A stretch of 64,000 bases of DNA from Methanoregula formicica SMSP. Its GTDB lineage: Archaea; Halobacteriota; Methanomicrobia; Methanomicrobiales; Methanospirillaceae. Of this stretch, positions 5,606-32,420 are shown one piece after another (the first letter of the stretch is position 1; each line of letters starts with the position of its first letter). The notes under the pieces are model-generated. The model saw nothing but the letters and a program-made list of their open reading frames with translations, ran no database searches and was not told the origin of the DNA. A program made the translations under genes and the position numbers. The stretch is taken from the NCBI RefSeq assembly GCF_000327485.1, contig NC_019943.1, positions 2,418,001 through 2,482,000 on the forward strand, given 5' to 3'.

Positions 5606-7081
5606 ATGATCAAAGGATCCGCAGGAATTGTTAAAACTCAGGAATACCACTATTCCTCCCCAATCGTGCTGGAAAGCGGGGAGACCCTTCCATCCCTTAC
5701 GCTTGCGTATGAGACCTATGGGAAACTCAACCGCGAGAAGAGCAATGCCATCCTCGTCTGCCACGCACTCTCCGGTGATGCCCATGTTGCCGGGTTCCAC
5801 GAAGGTGATACGAAACCCGGTTGGTGGGATTCCGTTATCGGGCCCGGCAAGGCACTCGACACGGACCGGTACTTCGTGATATGCTCGAACGTACTCGGGG
5901 GATGCAAGGGCTCAACCGGCCCGTCATCCATTAATCCGGAAACGGGTAAACCGTTCGGTGCAAAGTTCCCCGTCATCACGATCCGGGACATGGTGAACGC
6001 CCAGAAACTCCTCATCGATCATCTCGGCATCAGCCAGCTCTACGCAGTGGTGGGCGGTTCAATGGGCGGCATGCAGGTCCTGCAGTGGACCGTTTCATAC
6101 CCGGATGCCACGAGAAAGGCAGTAGTCATAGCCGCAACCGGTTACTCGACACCCCAGCAGATCGCGTTCAACGAAGTCGGCAGGAAGGCGATCATATCAG
6201 ATCCTCACTGGAACGGCGGCGATTATTACGGGAAGACACTCCCGACCCACGGTCTGGCACTCGCCCGGATGGTAGGCCATATCACATACCTCTCAAACGA
6301 GTCCATGCACGAGAAGTTCGGCCGGGCACTGCAGGGCAAGGACCGGATCGGGTTTGACTTCTCCACCGATTTCAAGATCGAGAGTTACCTCCACCACCAG
6401 GGCGATACCTTCACCAGAAGGTTCGATGCGAACTCCTATCTCTACATCACCAAGGCCATCGATTACTTCGACCTGACAAAAGACGGTTCGCTCACGACCG
6501 GCCTTGCCGGCGTGAATGCGGCGTTCCTCGTCATCTCGGTCTCGTCCGACTGGCTCTACCCACCTTACCAGTCGCAGGAGATAGTCTCGGCCCTGACAGC
6601 AAACGATGCAGAGATCCATTACTGCGAGATCCGCTCGAATTACGGCCACGACGCATTCCTCCTCGAATCCGGCCAGCTCAACTATATTGTGGGAAGGTTT
6701 CTCTCCCGCACCGTGGTACGGGACGTCATGATCACGGACGTCCATACCATCGAGGAAGGGACCACGATTGCTGTTACGGCACGTCGGATGGTCAACCAGG
6801 GCCTGAACCACCTGCCGGTACTTTCCGCAAATGGTCAGCTCGCAGGGATCGTCACCTCATGGGACATAGCAAAGGCGGTTGCATCCAACTTTCTCTGGCT
6901 GGACGAGATCATGTCCCGGGATGTGGTGACGACAACTCCGGATGAACCGATAGAAGCAGCAGCAAAGAGGATGGAAGAGCACGCCATCTCGGCGCTCCCG
7001 GTAATTGACGAGGAACAGCACGTGATCGGGCTCATCACGGCGGATGCAATCAGCGTGCTGGTCGGGAGAGCGAATCCATGA
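5606..7081 (+). CDS. metX: Homoserine O-acetyltransferase fused to a CBS-domain pair
   Basis: Residues 1-370 form a MetX alpha/beta hydrolase that transfers acetyl from acetyl-CoA to homoserine. The triad is visible as S152 (GGSMGG), D315 (SSDWLYP) and H348 (NYGHDAF). [11 protein letters not shown] and the HALSGDAH oxyanion region are family hallmarks. Residues about 372-491 form two CBS motifs, with [16 protein letters not shown] and [14 protein letters not shown], which often bind adenine nucleotides or SAM. The fusion, known from other methanogens, suggests feedback control of methionine synthesis by such a ligand. The stop overlaps the next start by 4 nt. Confidence 0.95.
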
Positions 7082-8100
7082 GGATCCTCTCTATCCACGC
7101 CGACTGCATGTGGTACCGTGTCACGAAAAAAACGAAGCTGGCCGAACCAGTGGATATTCTGGAGGACCGGATGGAGGAGTGCGTAGTGCTCTTCTGCTGC
7201 GTCGAAAAGCTTGATGAGAAAAATCCCGAGCATGTCGTCGAGAGCGCAAAGAAGAATGTGACGGCACGACTGGCAAAGCTGAAAGTCAGCCAGGTGATGA
7301 TCTATCCCTATGCGCACCTGACGAGCACACTCGGTTCACCGGAGTGTGCACTCGGCATTCTCAAAGGCCTTGAAAATAGTCTCCGGGCTGAATCCATCAG
7401 TGTCAGGCGGGCACCTTTTGGCTGGTACAAGGAGTTCGAGATCCGGGGGAAGGGGCACCCGCTCGCCGATCTCTCGATGACCATCTGTCCGTACGAGGGA
7501 ACGGAGTGTGACTTTACCTGCCCCTACTGCCACCACCCGGTCAGGGAGAGCGACATGAACCCTGTATGTCCCGGATCAGGATCCTGTCTCCGGAAAGACG
7601 ATACTTTCGGAAGAAGACCCGGGACAGACCCGGTTGAAAAACCCGTCGCATCAACGGCCCTGCTCGTCCCCGGTTGCCCGGAAGTCCCCGTGCAGCAGGC
7701 GCTCGCACTCCACATCTCCCACAATCTCAGGAAACGCGGTACGGCACTCACGGTCACGGGTAACCCGGCGGTCCTGAACCTCCTGAAGGTATCCGATCCG
7801 GAAAAACTGTACCTGCCGGAAACGATTGTCCTCGAAAAATGTATCGAAGAACTCGTAGAGAAGAAGCGGGACTGCAAGCTCTGCATCGTCTTTGCGCACA
7901 GCGATGCCGGGATCTCGTATGCAGCAACGATGCGCCATCTCCTGCCGGCTTCCCGTCTTATCGTGATAATCTTCGGAAAGGACCCGGAAGCACTGGCAGC
8001 ACTGATCGATTTCCCCTGCGAGAAGATCGTCGACAAGGCGGTGCACAACCCGATGCAGCTAAGAAAGAAGATCAACGAGGTGTTCGGATGGGTTGTATAG
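7078..8100 (+). CDS. Archaeal ThrRS-type editing domain fused to DUF1890
   Basis: Residues 1-135 match the archaeal threonyl-tRNA synthetase N-terminal editing domain, a D-aminoacyl-tRNA deacylase-like fold. It begins [10 protein letters not shown] and contains [12 protein letters not shown] and [20 protein letters not shown]. No catalytic synthetase core follows. Residues 137-170 carry eight cysteines ([19 protein letters not shown] then CPGSGSC), a likely metal site. Residues about 193-340 look like DUF1890, beginning [20 protein letters not shown], a methanogen-restricted domain. Editing domains remove Ser from tRNA-Thr, but whether this protein does so is unknown. It overlaps metX by 4 nt and the DUF1894 gene by 13 nt. 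Confidence 0.85.
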
Positions 8101-26148: not shown

Positions 26149-29100
26149 ATGGTCCAGACCATCGATATACTGCACAATATCAAAAAAGGCCTTTCCGTAG
26201 AAGACTGGAAGGTGCTGGAACCGGTTATCGCAGTCTTTGATAATCCCCAGAACCGGCGGGCACGGAAAAACCTTGTAATAGATCTCAACAAGCTTATCCT
26301 TGATACCGCAATCCGGGAGAACAGGCCCTCCCTTCCTGCGGCCCTCCAGGAGATCGAGCGAAGTGACAATGAAGAATTATTCTCGCGGATAATCAGGCAA
26401 TATATCCTCACAAAAGACCGTCGCTGGCTGGAGACTGTTTTCCTCCTGTCCGACAAGATCAGCAAAAAAAGCAACCAGTCCCGGGTGTTTGCCATGCTTG
26501 CCCGTGACCTGATCGATGCCGGAGTATCTGACGCTGCCCCGGACCTGATCGATCAGGGACTCCTCCTCCTCGACCGCATCAGTTTCCGGAAATACCGGTC
26601 AGATATCATGATCGATATCATCCCGCTGCTGATTGTCTGGGCGATTACCACACGCAGCCAGAACCTGCTCCGCACATCGCTCCTTCTCATCGAAGAGATA
26701 GGAGATATCTCCAAAAGGGCGGTATTGCATGCGGAGCTTGCTAAAGCTCTGGCTACCGTTGCCATTCTCGACAAGGACAGGCCCTTATTTTTAGACAGCA
26801 TCCGCAGTGCAACCAGCATCCACCAGAAAATAAGGAGACAAAATTGTATCTCCGAGATTGTCGGAAAAGGCGCAAAGACGGTGTTTGGCAAGGATATGGC
26901 GGATATTCCCCGCTTCCTCGAGCGTTTTTCCGAAGTCCCCCCCGATGCATTCCTTGAGATCGTGAGCGCGTTAACCGAACAGTTGCTCGAACGGGTCAAG
27001 GACAAACAACAGATTATCACCATTCTCCAGCAGTTATGCCATGACAAACCGGAAGTCACGGGAACGCTGGTTATCGATCTGCTCAAAAAAGCGGAGCGCT
27101 CCGGAGACCAGTGGTTCTTATCCACGGCAATGGATCTTCAGCAACACATCTCTGACAAGGAGAACTTCCCGATACGGGAGATGGTCCATGCAGGGGTTGC
27201 CGTGGCGAACAATGCAAATGACATGCAGGTCCTCACCGAACTCATCCCGATCCTTGAACGCCACTGCAATCCTGACATTCTTTCGAGGATCTATCTCCAG
27301 TTCTCGCAGATTATGCTGGCCTCGGGAAACTTCAGCTATGCCCTGGGAATATTCGGGAAGATCAACCATGAGATCGAGAATGCAGCGCAATATACGGACT
27401 GCCTCACCCAGCTGCTGAAGGAAGGGGTGTTAAATGACAGCATCCCCCTGATCCATAACAACATCCTCACAAAACTGCACCCTGATGTCGTCAGCACTGC
27501 GGTATACCGGGCTACGATCGAACTGAGCAGGGAATCCAGTTACCACGACCTTATCCTTCACATCCTTTCGATCCGGAACCTTATCCTGCTCCATCCAAAA
27601 CAGGACCACCTTATCCTAGAAAGTATAACCATCCTCGTAGACAGGGGATTTTTAGACTCCCATGATCCGGGGATCCTTATCCGGTTTGCAGAGTCCATCC
27701 GGGAACAGGCACTCAAGGAGCGCGCGATATCGAATATCGTTATCAAGATTGCAAAGATCGGGGTAAAGATCAAAAACCGGGACTTCCTTCAGAGAGCGGT
27801 CGGGCTGACATGCGAGATTGAAGGTCAGAACACCCGGTCTGCAGCCCTGAGCAGCATCATCGATGAGGCGTCAATCCTTGCAGCCCAGCAGGGCGATCTC
27901 GACCTGCTGCTCAGGATGAAAGCCTGGAGCAATTCCCTTCTTGAAAAAGACCTGGTCTCCTATGCAATGGCCAATATCATCGATGGGGTAATAAAATACG
28001 CTATTGATAAGCAATCCTGCGACGCACTCGAAGAGGCGTATCTCATCGCAGGCGAGATAAACGATCCCTCATTAAAAGGTCAGCTGTTCGAACGCATTGC
28101 GGAGTGTTTTGTGAAGATAGGATGCGCTCTATTAAACGATCCCTCGTTTGTCTCCTCCACACAGGAATTCGGGGTGAAATATTCACCGTTTGTCCGGGGA
28201 AGGGAAATCATCAGGAACCATGTAAAACCCCAGCAGGCGTCGCTGAAAATTGCCGGGATAATCGACATTATCCTGTCCTGTTCCAAAACAAGCGCAAGCC
28301 TGGACTACATCATACCACTCGCCCTGTTCGCAACTGAGATAGAGAACACCTTTGAACGCGATGCCATGCTGTCAAGGATAGTCTCAAACCTGAATGATGA
28401 GATTACGCATCCCAATTCAACAGATCCGTACGAGACGATGGCATTTCTCTTACGGAGGAATGAACTCGTCCATTCGAGCCCGGAAGTCATAGCGCTGATC
28501 CACAAGGTTCTCCTTCTGATATTTGATCCCTACGTCAGGCTCACGGGGTTATGCAATTTGGCTGACCTCTTTTCGCGATTGCAGAAAACTGAGGATGCCC
28601 GCCACATCCTTCAGGAGGTAGAGAAGAACCTGGACATCATCCTCAATTCCGGCTACCATAAAGTCCTTGTCCAGTCATACCTTGCATCATCATACACTCA
28701 GGTTGATGAGACGATTGCGGAAAAGAACCTCGCACGTGCAATCCAACAACTGGATGAAACCGAATTTGACAAGGACTCACAGGCCCGCCGACAGGTCATA
28801 AAAACCATTGTCCGGTTCAATACAATTCACCCGGATTCCCGTTGGTTCACCACCGCATTGCAGATAGCACAGAAGATCAAAGATCCAGCAGAGTATGCCA
28901 GCTCCCTGATTTCAGTGTATCGCATGGTCCGCAGGGATCCTGAAAAGCGCAGGGACCTGATACGCGCAATGGAAGCAGCTGCAGATAACGTTATTACCCC
29001 GTATGAGAAGGCTTCAGTAATCCTCTCCATTGTCAGGCTAACCCTCCAGAATGCGGATGGGGAACTGACGCTCAAACTCTTAAAAAAAGCAGAATCGCTC

Positions 29101-29709
29101 ACAAAAAAGATCAACATCCCCTCAATTGCAGATACCATCAGGAACAATATCGCTGATATCTACAGCGGTCTGTATGAACAGTCGCATGATAGAAAAATGC
29201 GGGATCTTGCGATCCAGGTGATCAAAACAATCGATGCGGATGAGGTGCGTCTCTTCCGGCTGGAGCAGCTGGGATATACCGAGATGTATGAGATCACGCC
29301 CCAGTTTGTGAAGATCAAGTCGGTTTCCGAGAGAATGATAAAAGAGGGCATTCACCCGAGCTCCGTTGCAACACTGGAGAGACTGGTCAGGGCCGTGGCA
29401 GACAGGGGGAAGGAGGCGATATTCTTCTGTTACCTTTCTGTGTATTTCAAGAAAGAAGGTCAGGATAAACTGTCCCGGAAGATGCTCCAGAATTCAATCA
29501 AGGAGGCAAGAATCATCCGCCCGTTATCCCGGAGGGCTTTTGTGATGTGCGATATCGCGTTGAAAATCTCTGCCGCAGGCTGTGAGCATTCCGCGCAGGA
29601 AATCCTGGACTATGCAATCGATGCGGCGACAAATATCCGGCAGTCGACATTGAGAGAGGAGGTATTCGATGAACTGGGCCTTGCCATTAAAATTATGCAG
29701 AGGATGTAA
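26149..29709 (+). CDS. Large alpha-helical repeat (TPR/HEAT-like) protein
   Basis: The 1,186-residue protein has no signal peptide, no membrane span and no catalytic motif. From end to end it alternates amphipathic helices in roughly 35-45-residue units, with repeated patterns such as ISKRAVLHAELAKALATVA, ERAISNIVIKIAKIG, TRSAALSSIIDEASIL and YASSLISVYRMVRR. This is the look of a TPR/HEAT solenoid that binds other proteins. It lies upstream of acylphosphatase and overlaps it by one base, so the two are co-transcribed. No named family is recognised and the partner is unknown. Confidence 0.8.
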   Translation: MVQTIDILHNIKKGLSVEDWKVLEPVIAVFDNPQNRRARKNLVIDLNKLILDTAIRENRPSLPAALQEIERSDNEELFSRIIRQYILTKDRRWLETVFLLSDKISKKSNQSRVFAMLARDLIDAGVSDAAPDLIDQGLLLLDRISFRKYRSDIMIDIIPLLIVWAITTRSQNLLRTSLLLIEEIGDISKRAVLHAELAKALATVAILDKDRPLFLDSIRSATSIHQKIRRQNCISEIVGKGAKTVFGKDMADIPRFLERFSEVPPDAFLEIVSALTEQLLERVKDKQQIITILQQLCHDKPEVTGTLVIDLLKKAERSGDQWFLSTAMDLQQHISDKENFPIREMVHAGVAVANNANDMQVLTELIPILERHCNPDILSRIYLQFSQIMLASGNFSYALGIFGKINHEIENAAQYTDCLTQLLKEGVLNDSIPLIHNNILTKLHPDVVSTAVYRATIELSRESSYHDLILHILSIRNLILLHPKQDHLILESITILVDRGFLDSHDPGILIRFAESIREQALKERAISNIVIKIAKIGVKIKNRDFLQRAVGLTCEIEGQNTRSAALSSIIDEASILAAQQGDLDLLLRMKAWSNSLLEKDLVSYAMANIIDGVIKYAIDKQSCDALEEAYLIAGEINDPSLKGQLFERIAECFVKIGCALLNDPSFVSSTQEFGVKYSPFVRGREIIRNHVKPQQASLKIAGIIDIILSCSKTSASLDYIIPLALFATEIENTFERDAMLSRIVSNLNDEITHPNSTDPYETMAFLLRRNELVHSSPEVIALIHKVLLLIFDPYVRLTGLCNLADLFSRLQKTEDARHILQEVEKNLDIILNSGYHKVLVQSYLASSYTQVDETIAEKNLARAIQQLDETEFDKDSQARRQVIKTIVRFNTIHPDSRWFTTALQIAQKIKDPAEYASSLISVYRMVRRDPEKRRDLIRAMEAAADNVITPYEKASVILSIVRLTLQNADGELTLKLLKKAESLTKKINIPSIADTIRNNIADIYSGLYEQSHDRKMRDLAIQVIKTIDADEVRLFRLEQLGYTEMYEITPQFVKIKSVSERMIKEGIHPSSVATLERLVRAVADRGKEAIFFCYLSVYFKKEGQDKLSRKMLQNSIKEARIIRPLSRRAFVMCDIALKISAAGCEHSAQEILDYAIDAATNIRQSTLREEVFDELGLAIKIMQRM

Positions 29710-30005
29710 TGATGAAGACACTCAAAATAATCATCACCGGCAGGGTTCAGAAGGTCGGTTTTCGGGCATGCATCCGGAGAATAGCATCAGACCTGAATAT
29801 CACAGGAACAGTTCTTAATCTTGAAGACGGAAAGGTGCAGGTTTATGCAACGGGTGAAGCGATAGTGCTTGAGAAATTCACCTCTATGGTTTACAGCTGT
29901 CCACGGGCTGTAATACGGGATCTCCAGATCACGGAGATGCCCTTGACAGTGTTCGATGGGTTCTCTGTTCTGAAACTGGAGAACAGGTTCAATACAGAAT
30001 TTTAA
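29709..30005 (+). CDS. acyP: Acylphosphatase
   Basis: The 98-residue protein carries the acylphosphatase signature GRVQKVGFRACIRR, with the phosphate-binding arginine in GFR, and the catalytic asparagine in TVLNLEDGKV. It hydrolyses acyl phosphates such as carbamoyl phosphate. A second ATG is the next codon. Its last 17 nt overlap the 3' end of the convergent cas1 gene. Confidence 0.93.
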   Translation: MMKTLKIIITGRVQKVGFRACIRRIASDLNITGTVLNLEDGKVQVYATGEAIVLEKFTSMVYSCPRAVIRDLQITEMPLTVFDGFSVLKLENRFNTEF

Positions 30006-30918
30006 AATCCGTTCCGGTCACAAGGGCCCGGGAAAAATTGTACACCTGTTCATTGACCCGGTCGGAGATATTTGCGGCGTAAAATGACTTAATCATAGCG
30101 CTTATCAGGGTATCTGACAGCATACACCGGTCGTTCGTAAGTTCAAAATCAGAATCTGTCAGGGATCCCCCTGCCATGTTCAGGACTATGGGATCAACCG
30201 TCCCTGCTTTTAATGGTTCGATGAGATCGTAGACGAGACCACCTTTTCCCTCATGGAGAAGCCCCACGTCCGGATTGAGGAGAGCTCCGATAACAGCAAC
30301 AGTACAATTGCCAAAGAGCATAGCATACCCAAAAGAGAGCATCGCATTGACGGGGTCGGCCTGTGGTCGGAGGGTCCTCCTCCGAAATCCCAGTTCCGGT
30401 GGAAGACTCCGTGAGAGGATCTCATAATACATATCGGAAGAGAGTTTGTGCAGGCGGCGAATTTCGTCCAGTTTTATCAGATATTCCAGTTCATCCAGGG
30501 ATTTGTGGAGCAAATCCAGTTCACCCTCATAAAACAGGCTGGATTGCCGGGATTCCTGAATTCGTTCGATCGCAAAGAGCCGGGACTTAATCGAGGCCTG
30601 TGCAATCCGGATCGCATACCGCTGGCGGGGAAGGGAACGCTGGTGTTCAGAACTCTCTTCACCATTGTCAGCGGAAAAAGGCCGTATCGTCCCAACAGGA
30701 GTTCCGTCCGAATCAAAAAAGGTGATATATACCCCATTCCTCACCAGCTGAGAGATGGTTGCAGAATGGATCGTATGCCCGCCAACAACAAGAAGGTGGG
30801 AAATATCTTCGAGAGGGTATTGTTCCGTGCTGGTTTTCTTCTGGATAATCAGGTGCTTCCGGGTTGACTTGATATGGGCTCCAAAGCCGCTGACAGAAAC
30901 CCAAGGATAATCCACCAT
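29989..30918 (-). CDS. cas1: Stand-alone Cas1 integrase homologue
   Basis: From ATG 30918 the protein has 309 residues, a normal Cas1 length. The N-terminal beta domain reads WVSVSGFGAHIKSTRKHLII, LLVVGGHTIHSATI and NGVYITFFDSDGTPVG. The helical domain has DPVNAMLSFGYAML and the active-site stretch LLHEGKGGLVYDLIEPLK with H222 and D231. The third metal ligand, a glutamate in most Cas1 (G-I-E-G-x-A), aligns with H157 in RRLHKLSSDMYY. The H-to-D loop is about three residues shorter than usual. No cas2, other cas gene, repeat array or PolB is in the window. The frame extends to 31098, but those 60 codons do not look like protein. Confidence 0.9.
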   Translation of the reverse strand: MVDYPWVSVSGFGAHIKSTRKHLIIQKKTSTEQYPLEDISHLLVVGGHTIHSATISQLVRNGVYITFFDSDGTPVGTIRPFSADNGEESSEHQRSLPRQRYAIRIAQASIKSRLFAIERIQESRQSSLFYEGELDLLHKSLDELEYLIKLDEIRRLHKLSSDMYYEILSRSLPPELGFRRRTLRPQADPVNAMLSFGYAMLFGNCTVAVIGALLNPDVGLLHEGKGGLVYDLIEPLKAGTVDPIVLNMAGGSLTDSDFELTNDRCMLSDTLISAMIKSFYAANISDRVNEQVYNFSRALVTGTDFKILY

Positions 30919-31119: not shown

Positions 31120-31130
31120 GGGTGCGAACA

Positions 31131-32420
31131 ATGTTCTGGGATAAAAAAATCGAGACGCTGAAACCAACGGAACTCAAAGAACTCCAGCTCAAACGCTTGA
31201 AAAAGACACTGAACCAGGCACATAACGTAGGTTTTTACCAAAACCTCCTTGCCGGAGCCGGGATCAAACCAGCGTCCATAAAGACATTGGAGGATATACG
31301 AAAAATCCCGTTTACAAAGAAACAGGATCTCCGAAGCGGGTATCCTTTTGGTTTTTTTGCTGTCCCCATGAAGAAGATCGTGCGGATTCACACCACTTCG
31401 GGAACCACCGGGAAGCCCACGGTTGTGGGATATACCCGCAATGACCTGGATGCATGGTCAGACCTCATTGCCCGGAACATGACAATGGTCGGCATAACCG
31501 AGGATGATGTTTTCCAGAATATGGTGAATTACGGGATGTTCACAGGAGGCCTTGGTTTCCACTACGGCGCCGAGAAGATCGGGATGACCGTCATTCCCAG
31601 TGCAACCGGCAACACGAAACGCCAGATCGAGATGATCCAGGATTTTAACGTAACGACAATACACTGCACGCCCAGTTATGCCATGCACCTCTCTGAAGTT
31701 GCAGAGGAGATGGGAGCGGGTCTTGAAACCCTGAAGACGGCGATCTTTGGTGCGGAACCCTGGTCGGAAAGCACACGAAAGACCCTCGAGGACCGACTGG
31801 GCGTTACCGCATATGACTCTTATGGAATGAGTGAACTGTTCGGCCCGGGAGTTGCCTTCGAATGCCCCGAACGTGACGGCCTCCATATCTGGCATGACAG
31901 TTATCTGGTAGAGATCATTGATCCTCTCAATGGCGAACCTGTTGCCGATGGAGAACGTGGAGAACTGGTGGTTACTCCGCTTGTCAAGGAAGCCATGCCG
32001 CTACTCCGGTACCGGACAGGGGATGTCACCATGCTCATGGAAGACGGATGTCTCTGCAGGAGAGGGAAAAAGATCACGCGGATCACCGGGAGAAGCGACG
32101 ATATGCTCGTTATCCGTGGCATTAATGTGTTCCCGTCCCAGATCGAGCATGTGCTCCTCGGGATTCCTGAGGTAGGCAATCAATTTATGGTCTATATCGA
32201 CAGAATCAATCATCTGGATGAGATGACAGTCGACGTGGAGATCAACAGGGAACACTTCAGCGGAGAACTATCCGATCTTGCCCGGCTCCAGAAAAAAGTC
32301 GTCAAGGAGCTTCGGGATGCACTTGAGTTGCGTACAACAGTAAAACTGGTTGAACCGGGTTCCCTGCCACGGTTTGAAGGAAAAGCCAAAAGAGTTATTG
32401 ATCGAAGAGAGGGATTGTAA
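31131..32420 (+). CDS. paaK: Phenylacetate-CoA ligase, first copy
   Basis: The 429-residue enzyme belongs to the adenylate-forming PaaK family: HTTSGTTGKPTVVGYT (P-loop), YGMSELFGPG, LLRYRTGDV, GRSDDMLVIRGINVFPSQIE and a C-terminal LPRFEGKAKRVIDRR with the adenylation lysine. It activates aryl acids to CoA thioesters. In methanogens this may serve the recapture of arylacetates for aromatic amino acids or the reverse reaction. ATG 31131 follows AGGGTG. GTG 31122 is less likely. It overlaps the second copy by one base. Confidence 0.93.
   Translation: MFWDKKIETLKPTELKELQLKRLKKTLNQAHNVGFYQNLLAGAGIKPASIKTLEDIRKIPFTKKQDLRSGYPFGFFAVPMKKIVRIHTTSGTTGKPTVVGYTRNDLDAWSDLIARNMTMVGITEDDVFQNMVNYGMFTGGLGFHYGAEKIGMTVIPSATGNTKRQIEMIQDFNVTTIHCTPSYAMHLSEVAEEMGAGLETLKTAIFGAEPWSESTRKTLEDRLGVTAYDSYGMSELFGPGVAFECPERDGLHIWHDSYLVEIIDPLNGEPVADGERGELVVTPLVKEAMPLLRYRTGDVTMLMEDGCLCRRGKKITRITGRSDDMLVIRGINVFPSQIEHVLLGIPEVGNQFMVYIDRINHLDEMTVDVEINREHFSGELSDLARLQKKVVKELRDALELRTTVKLVEPGSLPRFEGKAKRVIDRREGL

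Follow-up and report, generated by a model that had tools for sequence, protein, structure and literature searches.

What is the role of a Cas1 protein whose gene stands apart from every CRISPR array and cas2 gene of its genome? The question is raised by solo cas1, which encodes 309 aa on the (-) strand at 30918-29989 of the 64-kb window (the whole stretch of Methanoregula formicica SMSP DNA analysed, 64,000 nucleotides). The open frame extends upstream to 31098, and homologue starts lie mostly near 30918.

The gene and its place in the genome

The initial annotation had read the product as a full-length Cas1, and this was confirmed by sequence searches of Pfam, NCBIfam, PADLOC and the PDB. 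Pfam Cas_Cas1 (PF01867) matched residues 9-279 (E = 8.6e-55), a whole-domain match as family membership demands; NCBIfam TIGR00287 scored 144 bits (cut-off 71.7), and the PDB sequence search returned Cas1 structures (best 4N06, 1.4e-17). The name given by the NCBIfam and PADLOC models is 'CRISPR-associated endonuclease Cas1'. For structure prediction, an AlphaFold2 input of 6 close homologues gave a pLDDT of 54.8 and was discarded; the model used, with Cas1 rows from viral contigs added (22 sequences), reached pLDDT 87.8 and pTM 0.85. Its matches in the PDB were Cas1 structures, and the Cas1 fold is, by prediction, retained.

The source genome is a complete single contig of 2,820,858 bases with four Cas1 genes, two of which adjoin cas2 and an array of about 70 units. 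The nearest other Cas1, in a cas1-cas2-array locus, is 200 kb from solo cas1, and the rest lie at least 200 kb away. The window contains no CRISPR-like direct repeat, and solo cas1 is not flanked by extended terminal inverted repeats. A CRISPR adaptation module was rejected, as there is no adjacent cas2 or array and E157 is replaced by H; a casposon was rejected with PolB absent nearby, terminal inverted repeats absent and the four-residue active site not intact. The earlier statement that the locus is neither of these two therefore stands. As for the proposed whole-genome search for arrays and cas2, the two cas1-cas2-array loci do exist, but neither is close.

Compared with its relatives, the protein shares with CRISPR Cas1 (e.g. 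Archaeoglobus fulgidus, 4N06) the fold and D231, Y164, R181, N191 and D242, and differs in having no cas2 or array, no E/H ligand pair, an acidic pI and a shorter C-terminus. The fold is likewise shared with casposases (Cas1-solo group 2): among the matches listed, casposase chain 6OPM_B has the highest TM-score when normalised to query length (0.82). Casposases, however, keep four catalytic residues, adjoin PolB and lie within terminal repeats, all of which the solo gene lacks.

A casposon-like locus was seen elsewhere in the genome, 480 kb from solo cas1 (L198, C1:1962000-1976000). Its Cas1, of 413 aa (6431-7672 of that locus), has the catalytic residues. An 893-aa product carries motifs read as those of a family B DNA polymerase, and a further product of 613 aa was judged by eye to be possibly an HNH protein; the locus lacks both cas2 and an array.

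Group membership, distribution and neighbours

Two groups of cas1 without CRISPR have been reported (Krupovic 2014, PMC4046053, citing Makarova, Wolf and Koonin 2013). In that paper, Cas1-solo group 1 is exclusive to Methanomicrobiales, horizontal transfer is not evident, every member lacks a complete active site and the proteins are judged unlikely to be active endonucleases; the casposons, which are group 2, are then taken up. The group 1 description is restated in a review of 2023 (PMC9939771), and no later functional work on group 1 was found in the literature searched. Assigned by taxon, context and active site, the present gene is a member of this group, described in 2013-2014. Its family is confined to Methanomicrobiales, unlinked to CRISPR and incomplete in the catalytic tetrad, and the solo proteins form one clade of their own (SH-aLRT 100) with shared synteny. 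Against the published description, the gene is alike in order, CRISPR non-association, incomplete active site and lack of signs of horizontal transfer, and no difference was found other than the larger number of genomes measured here. The solo Cas1 is accordingly not the novelty it was first taken for, as a group without a complete active site appears in that text already.

Of 135 good Methanomicrobiales genomes, 133 have solo cas1, and of all 232 genomes of the order searched, 217 do. The two absences are of different kinds: one (G093) is an assembly gap, the contig stopping 2 bases past the neighbouring 1186-aa gene, and in the other (G160) the neighbouring genes are gone too, i.e. the whole locus. 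Outside the order, the solo profile found no solo-like Cas1 in about 310 sampled genomes of the same phylum; every sampled member scored at least 341 bits, and no other Cas1 of the phylum exceeded 158. Viral contigs were searched as well, and none carried a solo-type Cas1. Within the clade, some inner groupings (the genera of family f3 beside genus g1) disagree with family labels. Selection on the gene is strongly purifying, with dN/dS mostly 0.05-0.24 in close pairs. In one further genome (G144), contigs C67 and C101 each have a solo Cas1 match with 49% identity to the window protein; the pair is either assembly redundancy or a duplication.

Many genomes, including this one, also have cas1-cas2-array loci, and a solo protein modulating CRISPR adaptation in trans, e.g. 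as a heterodimer with CRISPR Cas1, was considered on that ground. This reading is quite improbable, as 46 of the 133 good genomes that carry the solo gene have no second Cas1 and still keep it. With solo Cas1 as the only Cas1 in these genomes, its retention is independent of a CRISPR adaptation module.

The surroundings of the gene were compared across 61 neighbourhoods. The acylphosphatase gene acyP (29709..30005, (+)) is convergent with solo cas1 and overlaps its 3' end by 17 nt; it lies directly downstream in this convergent arrangement in 43/61, frequently with an overlap. On the other side, a paaK-like AMP ligase gene (31122..32420, (+)) is divergent from cas1 and forms a conserved flank, being upstream and divergent in 35/61, and glmM occurs in 36/61. 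The next gene beyond acyP (26149..29709, (+)), a downstream neighbour of cas1 in 30/61 loci, encodes a 1186-aa protein that had no Pfam or PADLOC match and looks helical-repeat-like by eye. The recurrence of the gene and its neighbours in Methanomicrobiales, which the initial annotation had proposed to check, was thus confirmed by these counts. The paaK-cas1-acyP order is found in three families (f1, f4 and f6), which suggests that the slot is old and was inherited vertically.

The same neighbours do not look like functional partners of solo Cas1, because they are lost or broken where cas1 stays. Genera g13 and g25 keep cas1 with neither acyP nor paaK beside it, and at one locus (L046, genome G189) the paaK and 1186-aa genes are fragmented, as if decaying, while the solo cas1 beside them is intact. 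The idea that acyP or paaK forms an operon with cas1 was rejected, since both genes run opposite to cas1 and neither lies beside it in g13 and g25. None of the 61 neighbourhoods gave a match to Cas2 or PolB, and the longest array-like run was 3 (one locus) vs. 71-72 in controls. The suggestion that solo cas1 is the centre of an undescribed system was not sustained: its neighbours are housekeeping genes in conserved synteny, and cas1 persists where they are broken or gone.

Metal-site positions and conserved residues

Four positions correspond to the metal ligands of Cas1. In the alignment with CRISPR and casposon Cas1 and with PDB Cas1, the glutamate of GxEG falls on H157 (codon 30448..30450, (-)), and H222 (30253..30255, (-)) and D231 and E234 (30217..30228, (-)) occupy the other ligand positions, all codon coordinates being computed. 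The Glu-to-His change first noted by hand alignment was in this way reproduced, as were the persistence of H222 and D231 and the shortened loop between them (8 residues vs. 11 in close CRISPR Cas1 relatives, i.e. 3 fewer). H157 is flanked by the invariant R155 and by a basic residue 158 that replaces the Gly of GxEG.

Across 86 solo proteins, position 157 is H, S, Y, F, N, Q, E, D or L, and position 222 is H, Y, N, S, R, K and others; D231 is near-invariant and 234 mostly acidic. E157 and H222 occur together in 0/86, so that the tetrad is incomplete in every member, while E, H, D and E are all kept in 45/45 CRISPR and casposon Cas1 compared. His157 may be ancestral in the family, since it is the sole state in 19/32 genus entries, and yet it is dispensable. 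One option first offered was that the protein is still active as a nuclease or integrase but uses metal differently, with His157 standing in for Glu; in its favour, H157, H222, D231 and E234 all sit at ligand positions in the window protein and His is the commonest residue at 157 (23/32 genera). The protein is still retained, however, where 157 is S, Y, F, N, Q, D, E or L and where 222 is Y, R, S, N, K or others. Because both positions drift freely across the family, this reading was rejected as the main one and is very unlikely. Some metal binding may nevertheless occur, because D231 and an acidic 234 persist in most members. Another of the options first offered, a domesticated or inactive relative, agrees with the explanation preferred below.

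Conservation has moved elsewhere. New invariants in the 86 proteins are E133, R155, M163, E166 and R170, with R264 and C265 nearly invariant; the first Gly of GxEG (position 155) is Arg in 32/32 genera. On helix 150-170 the conserved face is rotated by about 160 degrees vs. CRISPR Cas1 (difference vector 14.1, permutation p = 0.001; each direction singly not significant, p = 0.11 and 0.06). A new, metal-independent enzyme on the Cas1 fold, with E133, R155, E166 and R170 or Y164 as active residues, was also considered, and several polar residues are indeed invariant in 86/86 members and not so in other Cas1. Such an enzyme is nonetheless improbable, as no metabolic or operon partner recurs and the invariant charged residues may be just a buried salt-bridge network.

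The charge of the protein has changed as well. Eight of 11 conserved basic columns of CRISPR-type Cas1 are now <50% basic in the solo family (18, 103, 122, 183, 243, 272, 273 and 282), and the median pI is 6.1 vs. 8.0 in CRISPR-type Cas1. Seven positions are newly basic (R154, R155, 158, R170, R179, R180 and R264) and could help a new surface to bind nucleic acid. One rival reading is a Cas1 without catalysis whose groove still binds DNA at branched ends or junctions, in repair or replication. It fits the retained fold in the AlphaFold2 model and PDB comparison, the arginines gained in and around the former catalytic helix, and the action of E. coli CRISPR Cas1 on branched DNA (PMC4046053). 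The loss of most conserved basic columns and the fall in pI from about 8 to about 6 speak against it, and we regard it as a serious but unlikely alternative.

Proposed role and its meaning

The explanation we prefer, with a probability of about 75%, is an exapted, metal-independent Cas1 pseudo-integrase that most likely serves as a binding or scaffold protein outside CRISPR. A Cas1 would have been captured into the chromosome before the Methanomicrobiales radiation and would have become a single-gene, CRISPR-independent core gene. Metal-dependent nuclease and strand-transfer chemistry would then have been lost, GxEG giving way to R-x-[H/other]-[R/K] and H222 not being kept, and with it most of the conserved basic residues of CRISPR-type Cas1, leaving an acidic protein. 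Selection would have moved to another face of the former catalytic helix and to the nearby E133, E152, R155, M163, E166, R170, R180 and R264, so that the protein could act as a non-catalytic binder or scaffold for another protein or a specific nucleic-acid structure. Both the absence of catalysis and the binding role are what we infer from the sequences. More tentatively, and at slightly less than even odds, the inactivated Cas1 would be an essential or near-essential core protein of the whole order with a function outside CRISPR and transposition, e.g. as a scaffold in the chromosome or in repair, or as a new enzyme, exercised via a conserved surface absent from studied Cas1.

What is added to the known group is a measurement, over many more genomes, of where the gene occurs, its synteny, the selection on it and its pattern of substitutions; its retention in nearly all genomes of the order, its frequent independence of CRISPR and its altered conserved face were not found in the literature searched. 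For annotation, about 1/3 of good Methanomicrobiales genomes would be scored as cas1-positive without any other Cas1, because the NCBIfam and PADLOC models name the solo gene Cas1. The data also point to residues and CRISPR-free genomes suited to functional tests of solo Cas1. If true, the exaptation of a CRISPR-type integrase as a core gene that is universal and unconnected with CRISPR would be a clear example of a host domesticating the Cas1 fold.
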